Source of the DNA: Desulfobacterales bacterium
Lineage (GTDB): Bacteria; Desulfobacterota; Desulfobacteria; Desulfobacterales; Desulfobacteraceae
Reading direction: 5' to 3'
Assembly: GCA_022361315.1 (NCBI GenBank)
Contig: JAKSBB010001294.1
Coordinates: forward strand, 1 to 6,624
Length of the DNA stretch: 6,624 nt
Positions 1 to 6,624 of this stretch are shown piece by piece. Under the pieces are notes generated by a model. The model was given only the letters and a program-made list of their open reading frames with translations. It ran no database searches and was not told the origin of the DNA. The stretch's first letter is position 1, and the number at the start of each line of letters is the position of its first letter. The translations under genes and the position numbers were made by a program.

Positions 1-2052
1 CACCCCAGATACCTGACCCTGGTGGCCCTGCCCTTTGTATTGGCCTGGCTTGCCGCGCCCATTATCCTTAAAGCGAAATACGCCACCATCTTAAAGGACA
101 TGATATCCAATAACCTGCTGGATATCAAAAGCTTCAGCACCAAGGAACTTGCCCACATATTCAAGCAGGACAAAAAAGTGCTTTCCGACCTTGAAGCCTC
201 TTTTCTTAAAGCCAGAGGAAAAGATGCCATCTGGTACGGCAACCTACTGAAAAAATTCTCCCAGGCCTCTCTGGACAAACATATTCTCGAGACACTTCCC
301 CTGCAGGATGAATCCACCCAGGTGGCATTAATAAAAATGATCTCGCCTGAGTCCAGATCCAAAGCCGCAGATGCGCTGGTGGCTCACCTGAATCCGGAAC
401 GACCGGAAACCACCATAGCCATCCTCAAACTGGTTTGTCAGGAAGGGTTCACAGCGGCCAATAAGGTGGATCTCACCCCGTATCTGGAAAGCACCCATCC
501 GGTGGTCAGAGGATTTGCCGCAGCCTGCCGGTATTCCCAGAACCCCGCAGAAACGCTTCCCAGAATTGAAACCTGGATAAACAGCCGGGATATGGACCAG
601 CGCCAGTCAGGTATCATCTGTTCCGGTCTGATCCGGAAACACAGCTTTATTGACAGACTGCTGGAAATCCTCTCAGAGAAAAATATTGACCCCATCATTC
701 CGGATATTATCATTGCCCTTTCCCGGCTGGAAGCCAGGGAATTGAACACGGTAATCTATTCCTATCTTTCCTATGAAATAGAGGCGGTCCGCATGGCTGC
801 CCTGGATGCGCTGGTCATTGATAACGACACCACACTGAAAAGGGCCGTTTCCCTGCTGGGTGACAGTTCAGAGGATATCCGTGATTTTGCCAAGGAAAAG
901 ATCAAATCCGCTGAATACCGGAATAACAAACTCCTTGTGGAATCCTTAGGTATTCCGAGTGCGAAGATCAGACGCGGCATATTCAATTTGCTGGAACACA
1001 TGGATATCAAAGAATTTGATATCTTGATGTTTGCCAAAAACCAGATTCTCAAAAGCTACACCAGCCTGGCCATGGGTGTTAAACTGAAACAATCCTCCCA
1101 AAGCCCGGTGGTGGAAATGGTCTCCGACCATCTGCTGCAGAAAAAGGATCTGATTCTGGAAAACGTCATCCGTGTCCTGGCCATCAACGACAAGAGCGGA
1201 AAGATGAAAACGGCATGGCGTGGTATATTCTCCCCCGACACCCGACAGAGGGCCAATGCCATCGAACTGCTAAGCGATGTCCTGGACCGTAAGGCTTTCA
1301 ACCAGATGGTCCCCCTTCTGGAAAGCCCCACACCGGAAAAAGCCCTTGATGAAGGAAGTAAACTGGTCAAATTGCCCGACCTGAACAAGGAAGGCGAGGA
1401 TGTCCTCACCCGTCTGCTGAACTCCGAAGACTGGGTTGACGTTATCATGGGACTCAGCCTGGTCAGAAACGACAGAGAAACCTATGATGTCCAGGCACTG
1501 ACCACCCATTTAAAATCACATGAAAACCCCATCATATTAAAGGAAGTTGAGATGGTCTCAAACACCGCCACATCCGCAGACAACACAACGGAACAGATCC
1601 AGACCGCGGAAATCTCCATGGGAGAAAAAATCCTTCTCCTTAAGGAAATTGATATCTTTTCCGGGCTGAGCGCAGAAGAACTGGCAGCCATCGCTGCAGA
1701 GACCGAAGAACGGGACTATCCGGAGGACGCTGAAGTCATCCGCCAGCACGAAATGGGAGAAACCGTCTTTCTTATCATCGACGGTGAGGTGGATGTGATC
1801 ATGGAACAGCCTGACGGCAAACAGGTGGTACTGGATCAGATCTCGTCCGGTGGCGCTTTCGGCGAAATGGCACTCATTGATGACGCCCCGAGATCCGCCA
1901 CCATAAAGACGGTGAGACCTTGCCGCTTTCTCATTCTTCACAAACAGGAGTTTAAGGAAACCGCCATGGAGTTCCCGCGGATTTCCCTGCAGATCTGCTC
2001 GGTGCTGAGCCAGAGAATCAGAGGGCTCCACGCGAAATTTCAGATCAACTAA
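1..2052 (+). CDS. Membrane protein (transporter-like) C-terminal part: last TM helix + HEAT repeats + cyclic-nucleotide-binding domain; 5'-partial
   Basis: The frame is open to base 1 (it reads H-P-R-Y-L-T-L before the GTG at 22), and those residues complete a hydrophobic helix ending about residue 17 (numbering from the GTG), followed by basic residues. The GTG has no Shine-Dalgarno sequence before it, so the gene almost certainly starts outside the window. Residues about 35-500 are helical and HEAT-like; clear units lie near 149-205 and 255-295. Residues about 534-670 are a CNB domain with the phosphate-binding cassette F613-G-E615-M-A-L...P623-R624-S-A-T. E615 (ribose) and R624 (phosphate) are both present and spaced as in PKA. 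Ser625 follows the arginine, where PKA has Ala and PKG has Thr. The domain order recalls Npt/ATP:ADP-translocase-like carriers with HEAT and CNB extensions; only the last helix is visible, so the carrier identity is inference. The CNB domain likely gates or modulates the membrane part when a cyclic nucleotide binds. The gene converges on a cyclase gene 87 bp away. Confidence 0.85.
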   Translation, partial: HPRYLTLVALPFVLAWLAAPIILKAKYATILKDMISNNLLDIKSFSTKELAHIFKQDKKVLSDLEASFLKARGKDAIWYGNLLKKFSQASLDKHILETLPLQDESTQVALIKMISPESRSKAADALVAHLNPERPETTIAILKLVCQEGFTAANKVDLTPYLESTHPVVRGFAAACRYSQNPAETLPRIETWINSRDMDQRQSGIICSGLIRKHSFIDRLLEILSEKNIDPIIPDIIIALSRLEARELNTVIYSYLSYEIEAVRMAALDALVIDNDTTLKRAVSLLGDSSEDIRDFAKEKIKSAEYRNNKLLVESLGIPSAKIRRGIFNLLEHMDIKEFDILMFAKNQILKSYTSLAMGVKLKQSSQSPVVEMVSDHLLQKKDLILENVIRVLAINDKSGKMKTAWRGIFSPDTRQRANAIELLSDVLDRKAFNQMVPLLESPTPEKALDEGSKLVKLPDLNKEGEDVLTRLLNSEDWVDVIMGLSLVRNDRETYDVQALTTHLKSHENPIILKEVEMVSNTATSADNTTEQIQTAEISMGEKILLLKEIDIFSGLSAEELAAIAAETEERDYPEDAEVIRQHEMGETVFLIIDGEVDVIMEQPDGKQVVLDQISSGGAFGEMALIDDAPRSATIKTVRPCRFLILHKQEFKETAMEFPRISLQICSVLSQRIRGLHAKFQIN

Positions 2053-2131: not shown

Positions 2132-2146
2132 AAAAGGCCTCAGGCC
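2132..2146 (-). terminator. Small inverted repeat with T-run at the cyclase stop codon
   Basis: Read on the minus strand, GGCC-TGA-GGCC spans the cyclase stop codon and is followed at once by TTTTAT. The stem is only 4-5 bp, so on its own it would be a weak terminator. Its position and T-run suggest it could help end the minus-strand operon ahead of the larger hairpin at 2061-2102. It may also be a chance palindrome. Confidence 0.25.
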
Positions 2147-3705
2147 AGGAGTTTGTAGACAATAATCTCCTCCCCCTTCCCTTTCACCCGCACAGGCGCC
2201 ATTTGCTCTGTGCTGTATGTGCCGGTCAGGAGACTGTGGGTGGTCTGGCTGAGGATGATATCGGAACCAAAGGTTTTGGCCAGGCCTTCGATGCGGGAGG
2301 CCGTGTTCACGGTATCCCCCACCAGTGCGTAGGACATGCGTTCCTCACTGCCGATGTTCCCCGCCAGCACGGCACCGGAATGAATACCGATCCCATGAGA
2401 GAGTCGGGGCAGCCCCTCTTTGGCAAGGGCTTCATTCAGGTTTCCAAGACGGCGGCGCATTTCAAGGGCAGCCTGAACCGCCATTTCCGGGTGATCCTCA
2501 TATCCCACCGGCGCACCGAACACGGCTTCAATTTCATCCCCCACATATTGAAGGATAAGCCCCTTGTGTGCCCGAACCGCCAGTGTCATTTCGTCAAAGT
2601 ACCGGTTCAGCACCTTTACAACCTGCCTGGGATGATTCTGCTCCACAAGACCTGTAAATCCCCTTAAGTCAGAAAACAGCAGGGTGACTCGTTTCATTTC
2701 GCCAGACAGGTCTGTGTTGCGGCCTGCGAGAATCTGCTCTCGGATTTCACGGCACATGAAGCGTCCCAGGGAATCCCGGGCAGAGCGGCTTTCATTGAGG
2801 CTGTCCACCATGGCGTTCACCCCCTGGGCCACATCTCCAAGCTCATCGTTGGATTCCACCGGTACCCGACGTGTGAGATCATTGTTCCCCACCGCCTTCA
2901 CCGTGGTTTTGATCTGCTCCAGGGGCCCGATGATACTTTTGGCCAGTAAATATGCCAGCACGACGGCAATGGTCATCAGGTCTGCGGCAACATAGGCAAG
3001 TTCCCAATAGAGGGAGGAGATCAACTCGCTCCGGGTCACGGCATCAGCCATGTGCAGTTGCCGGATATTGGAGGTCAAAATGATAGCGATAATGGGCATA
3101 GGGATACATATAATTCCCAGAAACACCATTAAAAACCGGGTGCGTAACCTCACCCGGAACCCGTATCTGACGTTCCGCAACTGTCCTTTTGGAAAAAACT
3201 GTCGGATATTGGGCCGCCAGGCATTGTCCAGAAGAAAAAATAACACTAGGCAGGTGACCCCGCCCCCGAGGCAGGAAATCCCCAGAAACCACCTCAGACA
3301 GTCAAGCAGATCCGGAGAAGGAACGTCAAACAAACGCGAGGTGATCAGGGGCTCCAGAAAGGCAAAAATAAATCCGGCCACCACCCACATTCCAAGGGAA
3401 ATCAGACTGATGGTGCTGGGCAGTTTCAGCACCTCCCGCTGGAGGTATGCGGCCGTATCCCCCGGAAGATCACCGATTTTCTTTTTCCCATCAATGATCC
3501 GGGCCATCATGCCGATGCGCCGGCGTCGTAACAAAAGAAAGCTGACACTCATGAAAAGCATGGTCACGGCGAAAAAAACGGCATCATAGTATCCGGGAAT
3601 ACCCGGATCCGAAGGCCGCGGCGGGAGAATATAGTTAAAGTAGATAAAGGTGGCGCAGCCCCCCAGAAAGTTCACCAGAACCAGTATGAGCCGGATTTTT
3701 TTCAT
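2140..3705 (-). CDS. Class III adenylate/guanylate cyclase, six-TM + HAMP architecture
   Basis: A 521-residue inner-membrane enzyme that should convert ATP or GTP to a 3',5'-cyclic nucleotide. Six helices lie near residues 4-26, 43-59, 97-118, 139-160, 190-211 and 234-256, with arginine/lysine-rich loops (60-96, 161-189) on the cytoplasmic side and only short outer loops. A HAMP linker follows (about 256-305; P261, D-E-L-G at 287-290), then the cyclase domain (about 338-521). Metal aspartates D346 (F-S-D-L-R-G-F) and D390 (V-G-D-E) and transition-state residues N467 and R471 are present, so it looks active as a homodimer. The base-selecting positions are Q386 and A460, in place of Lys and Asp/Thr, so ATP versus GTP preference is not readable. 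The layout matches the mycobacterial Rv1318c/Rv3645 type. With no large outer domain, it may sense membrane state or a membrane partner. It starts 3 nt after the PP-loop gene stop (TAAAGGATG), which implies coupled translation; a weak AAGGTG lies 14 nt upstream of the start. Confidence 0.93.
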   Translation of the reverse strand: MKKIRLILVLVNFLGGCATFIYFNYILPPRPSDPGIPGYYDAVFFAVTMLFMSVSFLLLRRRRIGMMARIIDGKKKIGDLPGDTAAYLQREVLKLPSTISLISLGMWVVAGFIFAFLEPLITSRLFDVPSPDLLDCLRWFLGISCLGGGVTCLVLFFLLDNAWRPNIRQFFPKGQLRNVRYGFRVRLRTRFLMVFLGIICIPMPIIAIILTSNIRQLHMADAVTRSELISSLYWELAYVAADLMTIAVVLAYLLAKSIIGPLEQIKTTVKAVGNNDLTRRVPVESNDELGDVAQGVNAMVDSLNESRSARDSLGRFMCREIREQILAGRNTDLSGEMKRVTLLFSDLRGFTGLVEQNHPRQVVKVLNRYFDEMTLAVRAHKGLILQYVGDEIEAVFGAPVGYEDHPEMAVQAALEMRRRLGNLNEALAKEGLPRLSHGIGIHSGAVLAGNIGSEERMSYALVGDTVNTASRIEGLAKTFGSDIILSQTTHSLLTGTYSTEQMAPVRVKGKGEEIIVYKLLA

Positions 3706-3708
3706 CCT

Positions 3709-4839
3709 TTAGGCGTCTGCACCTTTAAGCTTTCGTTCTATGGTATCGGCCAGGTCGTCTCTTCCCCGCGCCCTTAACAGCGGCACCATGGGACGGTAGA
3801 ACGGCGGCCTGACCCGGATGGTGATATCAAACCGGTCGATATCTTCCGGCAGCACCTCATCCGCTTCAAAGGCCCGTGTTTTATCCAGAAGTCCGAGGGC
3901 GGTCAGTTCAGTCATGGTTCGGACACACTTTTCACACCGGCCGCAGTTCAGCTGATCCGGTACATTGGCCAGGCAGACCCTGAAATTCTGGAACGCCGCA
4001 TCCCAGTGGGAGACAATTTCGATCTTTTCCAGGCGGGAGAGTTCATAGTCCCTGTGCCGGATGCGCATGCCGTAGGACGAATACTCCGGATCCAGCAGCG
4101 GATGTGACCCGCAGGGATGCAGATTGGGGATATCGTAGGATGAACCGATGAACATCAGATTCACCCGGGCGGAAAAAGAATGGGCCATGGCCGCAAGCAC
4201 CGCCCCGAAAAAAGAGTCCAGCCAGAGTTCCCGCTCATCGCAGAGGTGGCGGATATTGGTATACACGGGAATCAATGTGGTTCCGGCATCCCTGGTAATA
4301 TGGGAAATGGCCTTGATGGCCCGGTCGAAGACGTGGTATTTTGCCCCCCGCTCTATGACCCCGCCGATGTCAAACCCATGGAGAAAAAAGGCGTCCCGGA
4401 TATATGCCGGATGGTCCTCGGGATAGTTGAGGCGGTTCAGCCGAAGTGCAGCCAGGGAATCCATTCCGCCGGACATGACCATGCCGGTTCTGGGTGGCAC
4501 GGGCGTTTCAATCACAGACCGGGGTTTAGCCGTAACCTGAATAGGTGCATATCGTCCCTCTGTCCAATGTGCCAGCATTCGCTGAATCACGTTGACCCCT
4601 TCCAGCAGAAAGGGGCAGACCTCACCGTCCACAACCAGACGTTTTTCCCCCAGGTGCAGGGCCGGCAGCAGACATCCCACCAGAAATGCATCCGGGTTGA
4701 CAGCAAAGCCCTCCGCGTAAGCCTCTGTTGTTTTTATGAAAACGGTTTTTGGCTCCCGGTCGTTATCTTCAAATACCACCACCGCCGAAGCCGTAACGGT
4801 TTCCCCGTCTTTGTCCAGATTAAAATCCAGAAGTTTCAT
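3709..4839 (-). CDS. PP-loop ATPase of the QueC-like/N-type superfamily with zinc-type cysteine cluster
   Basis: A 376-residue soluble protein of unknown substrate. The pyrophosphatase loop S-G-G-M-D-S (123-128) shows an ATP-adenylating enzyme that releases PPi. C289, C299, C302 and C305 (C-x9-C-x2-C-x2-C, within N-C-G-R-C-E-K-C) closely mimic the zinc site of QueC, the 7-cyano-7-deazaguanine synthase. However, residues 1-115 form an extra, probably beta-rich domain not found in QueC, and a G-S-S (232-234)...G-S-H-P (244-247) stretch marks a different subfamily. No other queuosine gene is in the window. By family logic it would activate a carboxylate, amide or similar oxygen for attack by nitrogen or sulfur; the substrate is not inferable. 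It starts with ATG 18 nt after the ATP-grasp stop, with AAGGGAA about 9 nt upstream, and ends 3 nt before the cyclase. The C-terminal 60 residues are basic/acidic and helical. Confidence 0.88.
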   Translation of the reverse strand: MKLLDFNLDKDGETVTASAVVVFEDNDREPKTVFIKTTEAYAEGFAVNPDAFLVGCLLPALHLGEKRLVVDGEVCPFLLEGVNVIQRMLAHWTEGRYAPIQVTAKPRSVIETPVPPRTGMVMSGGMDSLAALRLNRLNYPEDHPAYIRDAFFLHGFDIGGVIERGAKYHVFDRAIKAISHITRDAGTTLIPVYTNIRHLCDERELWLDSFFGAVLAAMAHSFSARVNLMFIGSSYDIPNLHPCGSHPLLDPEYSSYGMRIRHRDYELSRLEKIEIVSHWDAAFQNFRVCLANVPDQLNCGRCEKCVRTMTELTALGLLDKTRAFEADEVLPEDIDRFDITIRVRPPFYRPMVPLLRARGRDDLADTIERKLKGADA

Positions 4840-4848
4840 AGATACGAA

Positions 4849-4855
4849 TTCCCTT
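4849..4855 (-). promoter_or_regulatory. Ribosome binding site of the PP-loop gene
   Basis: AAGGGAA on the minus strand ends 9 nt before the ATG at 4839, inside the 18-nt gap after the ATP-grasp stop. It supports that start. Confidence 0.6.
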
Positions 4856-4857
4856 AA

Positions 4858-5763
4858 TTATGACTGATTCCGGAAAGCAGTTTTCAGTACATGTTCCAGA
4901 ATAGTTGCCGCAATATTTTTTCCCGTTGCCTTTTCCAGCCCGCTGAATCCGGGGGAATAATTCACTTCGATCACCTGGGCACCGGAATCGGGTGACACCA
5001 TGATATCGACCCCGGCGATATCCAGACTGCAAGCCTTTGCCGCATCAACAGCGGTCCGTTCCAGCTCCGGTGACGGTGAAAAGGCACAGGCCCGTCCCTG
5101 CTGATGGATATTGGCCTTAAACTGCCCCGGCGGTGGTGTCAGCGCCATAGCGCCGGCCACCCGATCGCCCACCACAAGAAGCCTTAAATCCTGCCGATTT
5201 TCAGGGGGGATATACCGTTGAAGTACGAGCCCCTTAACAGGAACAAAATGGTCTTCCAGATACCCTTCGGCATCGGATGGCGAATCCAGTTTTTCCACAC
5301 CGTCGCCGCCCATCCCGTCCACCTGCTTTACCACAACCGGATAGCCGCCCAGCCGTACGACCCCTTCAAAAAACGTATCACGGCGGTTCACAAAACAGGC
5401 CTCCGGCACCGGTACCCCCGATCCTGATAATTGCTGAAGGCTCATAAACTGGTTCCGGGCAATGGTGACCCCGCGGATGCCGTTTACCAGGGGAATTCCC
5501 ATCAACTCAAACTGACGAAGCAGTACAAATCCGTATTCCCCCATGGGTGAGCCCTGACGGGGCATCACCAGGTCCGGTAAGGTGTCATGATCCGAAAAAG
5601 AAACCTCGCCCTTATTTCTTCCGACAGAACAGCACAGGCTGTAAGGATTAATCAGCATCACCCGATGGCCCCGCTGTTTGGCCTCTTCTCTAAAACGAGC
5701 GTTGGGATGAAAGTCAAACCCGTTCACGGTCATGATGCCTATGCTGCGGCCGGCAACGTTCAT
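4858..5763 (-). CDS. RimK-like ATP-grasp ligase (amino-acid/peptide ligase)
   Basis: A 301-residue cytoplasmic enzyme expected to join a carboxylate to an amine via an acyl-phosphate, using ATP and Mg2+. From the ATG: pre-grasp domain about 1-95 containing the RimK-type stretch around L-L-R-Q-F-E-L-M-G (81-89); ATP-binding lysine K146; glycine-rich lid G-M-G-G-D-G-V (150-156); D192 and R194 (D-L-R-L-L-V-V-G); metal ligands D253, E266 and N268 (E-V-N-Y-S-P-G-F). Length and motif order fit RimK/LysX/MptN relatives, which add glutamate, lysine or similar to a protein tail or cofactor. Which acceptor is used here is unknown. Start choice: a GTG at 5778 would lengthen it by five codons, but that GTG's first base is the last base of the GGAG motif, so that motif cannot serve it. 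The ATG at 5763 overlaps the acyltransferase TGA as ATGA, typical of translational coupling. Confidence 0.92.
   Translation of the reverse strand: MNVAGRSIGIMTVNGFDFHPNARFREEAKQRGHRVMLINPYSLCCSVGRNKGEVSFSDHDTLPDLVMPRQGSPMGEYGFVLLRQFELMGIPLVNGIRGVTIARNQFMSLQQLSGSGVPVPEACFVNRRDTFFEGVVRLGGYPVVVKQVDGMGGDGVEKLDSPSDAEGYLEDHFVPVKGLVLQRYIPPENRQDLRLLVVGDRVAGAMALTPPPGQFKANIHQQGRACAFSPSPELERTAVDAAKACSLDIAGVDIMVSPDSGAQVIEVNYSPGFSGLEKATGKNIAATILEHVLKTAFRNQS
5760..5763 (-). other. ATGA stop/start overlap joining acyltransferase and ATP-grasp genes
   Basis: The minus strand reads ATGA: the ATP-grasp start shares bases with the TGA of the acyltransferase. This arrangement usually makes translation of the second gene depend on the first and indicates one transcript. 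Confidence 0.8.
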
Positions 5764-6624
5764 GGCTGGCTTGTCCACTCCTTTTCAATCATATGTTCCG
5801 GCATCCAGACCCCCATCTCTTTGCCCACCTTATCGCTGAAATAGGTGGCTATTTTCCGGGTATTGTTGCGAAGGGCAATCTTCTGGGTGGCCAGATTGTC
5901 TTCGCTGATAATGGAAAACACCTTGACATCAACTGCCCTTGACGTCAAGCCTTCCAGAAGTTTCGCACCGATTCCCATGGCCCGGTATTCCGGACGCACC
6001 GAGGTATATCCCCGTTCCACAAATCGTGTAAAATCCAGGCCGGTGATATTCCGAATCCGGTCCACGAACACCTGGCGGGGCCGCTTGAGGCTCGAATTGC
6101 CCACAATGCATCCGTTTTCTGTGGCATAGCCGATCAGGTAAGCCCGTTCAAGGTTGGCACGGACATGGGTGATATCCACGGAACCGCCGGCATCCACCAT
6201 AGCAACGATTTCATCCATCACGCCCCGGGGAAGTTCATCGGGTGGCACAAAGTGAAATTCGACGCCGGTTCCCAACACCCGGATATCCGAAGAGGCAGAT
6301 ATCACCCTGTGGCGAATGAGTTCCTTTGGCGTCATGTTCCCCAACAACGGCAACATCAGCAACGGATCCGGGATGCGCCGGGGAAAGGGTTCCCCCGGAA
6401 GTGGGGCGACACGGCGATACTTTAAAATCGGCGCGGGAGGTTCTCGTCTGCTCCCCCCGTCATCAGCTAAATCCTCATCTGGGAAATCCTCAAAGGAATG
6501 GACGATATTCGGATTATTCACAATCCATGAAGCCTGGCCGATGAACTCTTCCAGATCAAAGGCGTCAGGGGCCGAACATTCATCACTGAAACATTTCTCA
6601 GAAAATAAGACCTTACCGTAAACA
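5760..6624 (-). CDS. GNAT-family acyltransferase with acidic N-terminal extension, probably 5'-partial
   Basis: Acetyl- or acyl-CoA-dependent N-acyltransferase; acceptor unknown. Numbered from a GTG at 6521 (253 residues): 1-50 is acidic and proline-rich, probably unstructured; about 60-125 is a mixed region; about 125-240 is the GNAT fold. The CoA pyrophosphate loop is R180-A-M-G183-I-G185-A, and a later helix reads N-L-A-T-Q-K-I-A-L-R-N-N (209-220), in the place of the usual motif-B helix. Upstream of 6521 the frame stays open for 34 more codons to the window edge, with plausible coding sequence (for example L-E-E-F-I-G-Q-A-S-W-I) and no ATG, GTG or TTG. The GTG itself has only a weak AGG upstream. 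I therefore favour a start outside the window and report the visible part; a GTG start at 6521 remains possible. It is the first visible gene of the four-gene minus-strand array, sharing ATGA with the ATP-grasp gene, so the two enzymes likely act in one pathway. Confidence 0.8.
   Translation of the reverse strand, partial: VYGKVLFSEKCFSDECSAPDAFDLEEFIGQASWIVNNPNIVHSFEDFPDEDLADDGGSRREPPAPILKYRRVAPLPGEPFPRRIPDPLLMLPLLGNMTPKELIRHRVISASSDIRVLGTGVEFHFVPPDELPRGVMDEIVAMVDAGGSVDITHVRANLERAYLIGYATENGCIVGNSSLKRPRQVFVDRIRNITGLDFTRFVERGYTSVRPEYRAMGIGAKLLEGLTSRAVDVKVFSIISEDNLATQKIALRNNTRKIATYFSDKVGKEMGVWMPEHMIEKEWTSQP
5778..5785 (-). promoter_or_regulatory. Shine-Dalgarno-like AAAAGGAG before the ATP-grasp ATG
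   Basis: The motif lies within the end of the acyltransferase gene, 14 nt from the ATG. That spacing is long, which fits a coupled start rather than strong independent initiation. It overlaps the alternative GTG codon and so argues against that start. Confidence 0.5.

Follow-up and report, generated by a model that had tools for sequence, protein, structure and literature searches.

What might a GNAT acetyltransferase, a RimK-like ATP-grasp ligase and a QueC-like PP-loop protein be doing together when their genes follow one another on the same strand? The question is raised by a stretch of 6,624 nucleotides from a Desulfobacterales bacterium (contig JAKSBB010001294.1 of assembly GCA_022361315.1), which we call the window, and whose minus strand carries, in this order, the genes for the GNAT, the RimK, the PP-loop protein and a nucleotide cyclase. 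We propose, tentatively, that in the Desulfobacterota the first three provide the enzymes at the heart of a conserved module, and that this module produces and transports a small peptide-like metabolite containing glutamate; we think that this is quite possibly right, without going so far as to call it probable. What carries the proposal is the adjacency and co-occurrence of the GNAT, RimK, PP-loop and a further, GshB-like, gene, the linkage of genes for an ABC transporter of oligopeptide type and for a TLC/HEAT/cNMP protein, the signature motifs and the predicted fold class. An earlier interpretation of the letters of the window (hereafter the sequence-only reading) had already suggested a tailoring pathway here; part of it is borne out by our analysis (the linkage, its conservation, the QueC-like traits) and part is not (the extent of the unit, a precursor peptide, a link with N-acetylglutaminylglutamine amide, NAGGN).

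Results

The coordinates confirm the close packing noticed in the sequence-only reading: an ATGA at 5760-5763 is common to the GNAT stop and the RimK start, and the gap between RimK and the PP-loop gene is 18 nt, while 3 nt separate the PP-loop stop from the cyclase start. A scan of a genome collection with an alignment of the PP-loop protein led to 87 confirmed relatives; 80 of them, which make up 79 loci, were retained. The record titles are mainly Desulfobacterales, Desulfobacteraceae or Deltaproteobacteria, and by these titles many of the hosts belong to marine sulfate-reducer lineages. Desulfocicer vacuolatum DSM 3385 (L048) and Desulfosarcina widdelii PP31 (L058) are two of the hosts. 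When loci with enough flanking sequence are counted (at least 900 nt upstream for RimK, 2.5 kb upstream for the triplet and 1 kb downstream for the cyclase), RimK immediately precedes the PP-loop gene in 68 of 74 (gap below 620 nt), and in 52 of 64 the three genes of the triplet follow one another without interruption, 20 of these 52 having the exact 4-nt overlap between GNAT and RimK. Because the genes are so tightly linked in relatives, the three enzymes are probably made together, as had been supposed; related genomes in which the three lie apart and independently of one another, an outcome that the sequence-only reading had named against itself, were looked for and are not what we see. The triplet is also conserved without the cyclase, which directly follows the PP-loop gene in just 16 of 75 loci.

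The strict triplet is missing in 12 of the 64 loci. A GNAT without RimK is found in L061 and L068-L070, and RimK with no GNAT inside the stretch in L033, L047, L055 and L077; the GNAT lies 3.8-3.9 kb off in L044 and L050, open reading frame (ORF) calls overlap in L063, and L075 is broken. In this last case (L075/L165, genome G400; L165 6768-8124) the PP-loop gene runs in two frames and RimK is shortened, by apparent decay of the system in one small genome or by assembly error, and in L078 and L067 the PP-loop gene is split over two ORFs, the pieces of which were searched separately. In the closest relative, L076, two small lipoprotein-like ORFs stand upstream of the GNAT gene (4300-5600), between it and rplU; lipoprotein-like groups occur at this position in only 4-5 loci.

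Among 146 genomes of the order, the PP-loop profile matches 21, of which 19 are taken as orthologous, the other two being G169 (distant tandem copies) and G352 (fragments). The GNAT is found at E <= 1e-20 in 19/19 genomes with an orthologous PP-loop gene (in G400 on a separate contig and broken up) and in 0/127 others, and the RimK clade (at least 218 bits, next best 168) in 18/19 and in 1/127, namely G412. The linkage of these genes is far beyond chance, though related genomes are not independent (Fisher values for co-occurrence from 5e-19 to 3e-24). Pairwise distances correlate at 0.88 for PP-loop and RimK, at 0.91 for PP-loop and TLC and at 0.48-0.60 for the GNAT, values that have no control and are not used as proof. 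The two distant tandem PP-loop genes of G169 (L161, 7763-10307; 325 and 330 bits) lie near ORFs that by eye resemble glycosyltransferases, and no GNAT, RimK or GshB match was found within the 18 kb read there.

By its motifs and its modelled fold, the PP-loop protein appears to form a new QueC-superfamily branch in which the Cys4 site is kept and the QueC substrate motifs are missing. No glutaminase domain was found within its 376 aa (Pfam, NCBIfam). At E <= 0.1 the protein matches no family of Pfam, the QueC model PF06508 included, and none of NCBIfam, and at E <= 1 none of PADLOC. SGGMDS and C-x9-C-x2-C-x2-C are invariant across 42 aligned close homologues. In a wider set of 90 PP-loop sequences, the SGGxDS loop is present in 85 (11/11 QueC controls) and C-x9-CxxCxxC in 82, a spacing identical in 10/11 QueC controls of the same phylum, while the exact C-x8 spacing occurs in 4/90 and in 0/11 controls; the loop and the Cys4 zinc cluster, for which the literature gives C(x)8CxxCxxC, are shared with QueC. 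In contrast, the canonical QueC motifs YxQxHxxE, VPxRN and YPDC (PMC13329287) are each found in 0/90 PP-loop sequences, against 10/11, 11/11 and 11/11 QueC controls. The protein differs by the lack of these motifs, and by an extra N-terminal domain, both from QueC (the preQ0 synthase) and from Cap9 of type IV CBASS; the Tyr/Asp nucleobase recognition of Cap9/NDG deazaguanylation, looked for as YPDC only and not as the looser Cap9 variants, is seen in 0/90.

With QatC, from the qatABCD anti-phage defence system, the protein shares an N-terminal extension on a QueC core. Its cysteine spacing is C-x9, where the literature gives C-x19-CGxCxxRR for QatC; a C-x17-23 pattern, meant to capture this zinc variant, is found in 0/90 PP-loop sequences but also in 0/12 QatC controls, and so in this form does not discriminate. 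The window protein has no match to NF041925, the NCBIfam model of QatC, or to a PADLOC model, one distant plasmid relative reaching E 0.054, and profile comparison was weak with a narrow alignment and modest with 90 sequences (QatC probability 68, E 4.8e-5). The predicted fold is closest to QatC and QueC in a second look with VIA-align only; no match better than E 0.001 came from plain Foldseek, and a PDB sequence search with the alignment gave chance-level matches only (E 0.42-1). Neither qatA, qatB nor qatD was recognised among the recurrent neighbour groups, which were scanned in part, or the PADLOC hits. Motifs, domain scans and predicted fold agree with the earlier description of a QueC-like protein with zinc-type cysteines and without a glutaminase. 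Full-length canonical QueC is also present in 11 of 13 genomes examined.

RimK of the window matches PF08443 at 1.2e-29 and exceeds the TIGR00768 cut-off (163.4 vs 143.4), which makes it a RimK-family ligase; it stays under the cut-offs of PRK10446, the S6 modification equivalog (153.6 vs 331), and of TIGR03103, the NAGGN synthetase (28.7 vs 569), to which the GNAT part has no match. Its EVNYSPGFSG segment we take to serve in metal and ATP binding.

The three enzymes had been correctly described, except that the GNAT in the window is only a fragment, truncated by the window edge; its two closest homologues are 479 and 481 aa long. PF00583 is matched at 9e-4, its 19.9 bits falling short of the 20.7 cut-off, but the acetyl-CoA motif typical of GNATs, R/QxxGxG/A, is present and the fold is that of a GNAT. 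In a full-length relative the N-terminal region is predicted to contain a B12-radical-SAM-like domain, a region that is shortened or missing in many members. This assignment comes solely from the predicted fold, since similarity at the sequence level was tested and not found: CxxxCxxC occurs in 0/65 sequences, C-x3/4-C-x2-C and DxHxxG are absent in 29/29, and comparison with three radical SAM proteins of related loci gave no profile-level similarity (probability under 1). In lacking the iron-sulfur motif, DxHxxG and profile similarity, the region differs from cobalamin-dependent radical SAM enzymes such as AprD4, TsrM and OxsB. A distinct radical SAM-like protein, with C-x4-C-x2-C in 10/10, recurs beside the cyclase, PP-loop or GshB gene (L004 9511-10746, L047 9173-10399 and eight more loci).

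The sequence-only reading had proposed a unit of three genes. The triplet is real, but many genomes have further genes linked to it, for a ligase resembling GshB, a transporter-like TLC/HEAT/cNMP protein, a protein with an FGE domain and an ABC transporter (counts per locus are lower bounds, flanks being 8 kb or less). The GshB-like ATP-grasp enzyme is found in 17/19 triplet genomes and in G412, and in 0/126 of the remaining genomes of the order. Of 12 genomes with both, 9 have its gene no more than 10 kb from the PP-loop gene; it comes directly after TLC-HEAT on the same strand in L037, L049, L053, L054 and L066, and shares a 4-nt overlap with the PP-loop ORF in L061. The enzyme carries PF02951 and PF02955, as GshB does (PRK05246 score 274.1 in L048, cut-off 272), but differs from GshB in scoring 262.7, under that cut-off, in L167 and in being genetically tied to GNAT, RimK and PP-loop. 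Across the 13 genomes examined, the GshB domain is present in 12, PF04262 GshA in none and PF04107 in seven (strong in four, moderate in two more); glutathione synthesis is not an evident role for GshB in G001, G002, G005, G006 and G280, because neither type of GshA is there.

The TLC-HEAT-cNMP protein is encoded in 51/80 loci, the window included (49/79 by direct search), a full-length relative in L001 having 1070 aa with TLC, HEAT and cNMP-binding domains; an FGE-domain protein is encoded in 42/80 and some cyclase in 36/80. In L167 (G317) the genes for TLC-HEAT, GNAT, RimK, PP-loop and GshB are followed, all in one direction, by those for a solute-binding protein and a pair of permeases, by two ATPase-like ORFs and by FGE; the ATPases were assigned by eye, and the binding protein and permeases by comparison with importer models for oligopeptides, nickel and glutathione, with scores below cut-off throughout. 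In G412 (L164), the PP-loop and GNAT genes were not found though the contig continues, and the slot after RimK is occupied by an ATP-grasp protein weakly matching biotin carboxylase (1.2e-6), LdmS (2e-5) and BesA (1e-4), the matches to the last two, which are amino-acid ligases, being far under the cut-offs. About 2 kb after these two genes lies a queuine tRNA-ribosyltransferase (12699-14162; PF01702, 2e-159), probably a housekeeping gene. A gene of the N-formylglutamate amidohydrolase family adjoins the PP-loop gene in three loci of one homology group (L042 9238-10011, L068 8608-9546, L070 9178-10098; PF05013 checked on the L068 copy only), and another is seen by eye beside the PP-loop gene of L089 (2669-3598). 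As for a precursor peptide or carrier protein, which had been expected nearby, no conserved ORF of such size was found: ORFs of 22-95 aa within 6.5 kb and outside recognised genes form groups common to at most 3 loci.

Table 1. Genes and motifs of the window
Feature	Position	Strand	Remark
GNAT acetyltransferase gene, 3' part only	5760..6623	-	open at right edge; end of N-terminal region and whole GNAT domain inside window
Acetyl-CoA binding motif R-x-x-G-x-G (R214, G217, G219)	5967..5984	-	invariant in 30 aligned sequences
RimK-like ATP-grasp ligase	4858..5763	-	start is the ATG of the ATGA overlap; ORF list starts upstream at GTG 5778
ATP-grasp segment EVNYSPGFSG in RimK	4939..4968	-	E271, N273, P276, G277 kept by 95% or more of 69 RimK sequences
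PP-loop protein, unnamed QueC-superfamily branch	3709..4839	-	376 aa; N-terminal extension aligns with QatC
SGGMDS pyrophosphate-binding loop, PP-loop gene	4456..4473	-	motif
C-x9-C-x2-C-x2-C zinc-type cluster (C289, C299, C302, C305), PP-loop gene	3925..3975	-	motif
HAMP class III nucleotide cyclase	2140..3705	-	last gene of minus-strand run
TLC (ATP/ADP-transporter-like)-HEAT-cNMP-binding protein, C-terminal part	1..2052	+	convergent to minus-strand run

Discussion

How might such a module work? The ATP-grasp chemistry of RimK and the GshB-like enzyme would join amino acids, a glutamate and a residue resembling glycine. By adding an acyl group the GNAT would cap the free amine; in those members that have the radical-SAM-like N-terminal region, it may act as a scaffold without catalysis. 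The PP-loop enzyme would adenylate a carboxylate and then probably form an amide; since it has no glutaminase domain, we suggest free ammonia as the nitrogen donor. QueC, in its first step, likewise converts a carboxylate to an amide with free ammonia. The TLC/HEAT protein and the ABC system would move the product, and transport may be gated by a cyclic nucleotide from the neighbouring cyclase, where there is one. The full version of this scheme, a new metabolite class of the Desulfobacterota in which the QueC-branch enzyme amidates or otherwise derivatises the carboxylate of a peptide built by RimK and an orphan GshB, with GNAT acylation on a catalytically dead cobalamin-radical-SAM scaffold and cyclic-nucleotide-gated transport by the TLC/HEAT/cNMP protein, seems to us possible but doubtful in so much detail. 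The enzyme classes are all familiar ones; what appears undescribed, as had been thought of the pathway, is their combination, together with the PP-loop branch and the architecture of the GNAT, and we did not meet the cluster in the literature searched (titles and abstract openings, without preprints and most subscription papers). Passages of PMC2922099 describe a related logic but not the cluster found here.

Several points weigh against our proposal. The substrate and the product chemistry are what we infer, not what we observe, and the carboxylate could belong to a sugar, since distant PP-loop relatives sit in polysaccharide clusters. RimK is absent beside the GNAT and PP-loop genes of L061 and L068-L070, and the ATP-grasp protein that follows RimK in L164 is best matched by a biotin-carboxylase-like model and not by a peptide ligase. 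Within flanks of at most 8 kb, the GshB-like gene was inside the fetched stretch in only 30/79 loci, and the gene of a family-5 solute-binding protein in only 16/80. PF04107 being strong in four of the 13 genomes and moderate in two, real glutathione synthesis is possible in these. Finally, the Fisher values overstate the evidence because the genomes share ancestry.

Protein modification, glycan decoration and defence are all given lower weight than a peptide-like metabolite. In the first, the QueC-like enzyme would attach a small molecule to a partner protein at its terminus, as Cap9 does and as has been proposed for QatC; RimK would extend the tail of a protein with glutamates, and an N-terminus would be acetylated by the GNAT in the manner of RimI/Nat. 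We regard this as unlikely: the neighbourhood offers no conserved small ORF, no QatB- or CD-NTase-like partner was recognised among the recurrent neighbours (scanned in part), and the nucleobase motif YPDC is found in 0/90. The Met-Gly start of QatB and CD-NTase is not conserved in any candidate either (RimK 4/67, GNAT 2/56, TLC 1/53, GshB 2/30, PP-loop 0/79, with starts as called), and GshB with a peptide-type ABC transporter suits a small molecule better.

An N-acetylated, amidated glutamine or glutamate peptide kept as an osmolyte, a NAGGN-like compatible solute made by separate enzymes, is a special case of the peptide-like metabolite, and one to which we give an equally small chance. NAGGN synthesis combines GNAT, ATP-grasp and ATP-dependent amidation chemistry, the same three chemistries as the triplet, and several hosts have marine or saline record titles or names. 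The triplet differs, however, in using separate proteins, in having a QueC-like instead of an asparagine-synthetase-like enzyme, and in its independent distribution, so that the comparison made in the sequence-only reading stays an analogy. The NAGGN synthetase is over the cut-off in 11/146 genomes, only one of them shared with the triplet, but this single overlap (Desulfocicer vacuolatum, G001, has both) is the chance expectation (Fisher p = 1.0), and TLC/HEAT/cNMP, GshB and cyclase proteins are not known as NAGGN partners. Replacement of NAGGN by mutual exclusion was tested and is not supported (1/19 triplet genomes vs 10/127 others, p = 1.0; 3/21 vs 8/125, p = 0.20, when both non-orthologous PP-loop genomes are counted).

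Somewhat less likely still is a decoration of envelope glycans, with the PP-loop enzyme amidating a sugar carboxylate and the GNAT acetylating an amino sugar. Distant PP-loop relatives on plasmids (L128-L133, from Nostoc, Gloeothece, Azospirillum, Halorientalis, Priestia and Gemmobacter, all annotated hypothetical) lie in exopolysaccharide or sugar clusters, a polysaccharide pyruvyl transferase being at most two genes away in 4/6 plasmid neighbourhoods read, of 16 records with matches, and the tandem copies of G169 have, by eye, glycosyltransferase-like neighbours. Yet no glycosyltransferase was recognised in the 45 neighbour groups that are commonest across the 79 loci (by eye, annotated in part), and ATP-grasp ligases and a peptide-type ABC transporter do recur. 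An anti-phage island with a cyclase, a Pycsar-like cNMP-binding membrane effector and a QatC-like enzyme is very improbable: the cyclase matches PADLOC PycC at 2.3e-24, the TLC protein of L001 has matches to models of Pycsar effectors in its cNMP domain (PycTIR at 2.5e-14) and the PP-loop protein has a QatC-like predicted fold, but PADLOC matches are confined to the cyclase and cNMP regions, with none for the PP-loop protein, RimK or the GNAT part in the window, the cyclase follows the PP-loop gene in 16/75 loci only, and the same rplU-obgE block flanks nine loci upstream, unlike a mobile island.

Conclusion

If the proposal of a peptide-like metabolite is true, QueC-type chemistry would extend to a peptide-like substrate, beyond the nucleobases on which it is known and the protein conjugation that is reported for Cap9 and has been proposed for QatC, and a role would be found for a GshB homologue present in only 18/146 genomes of the order, 17 of them with the cluster. 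The GNAT may show a radical SAM scaffold that was retained without its iron-sulfur site. The gene set is compact, so that these ideas can be tested in a few expression experiments, and a conserved metabolite in marine sulfate-reducer lineages would matter ecologically.

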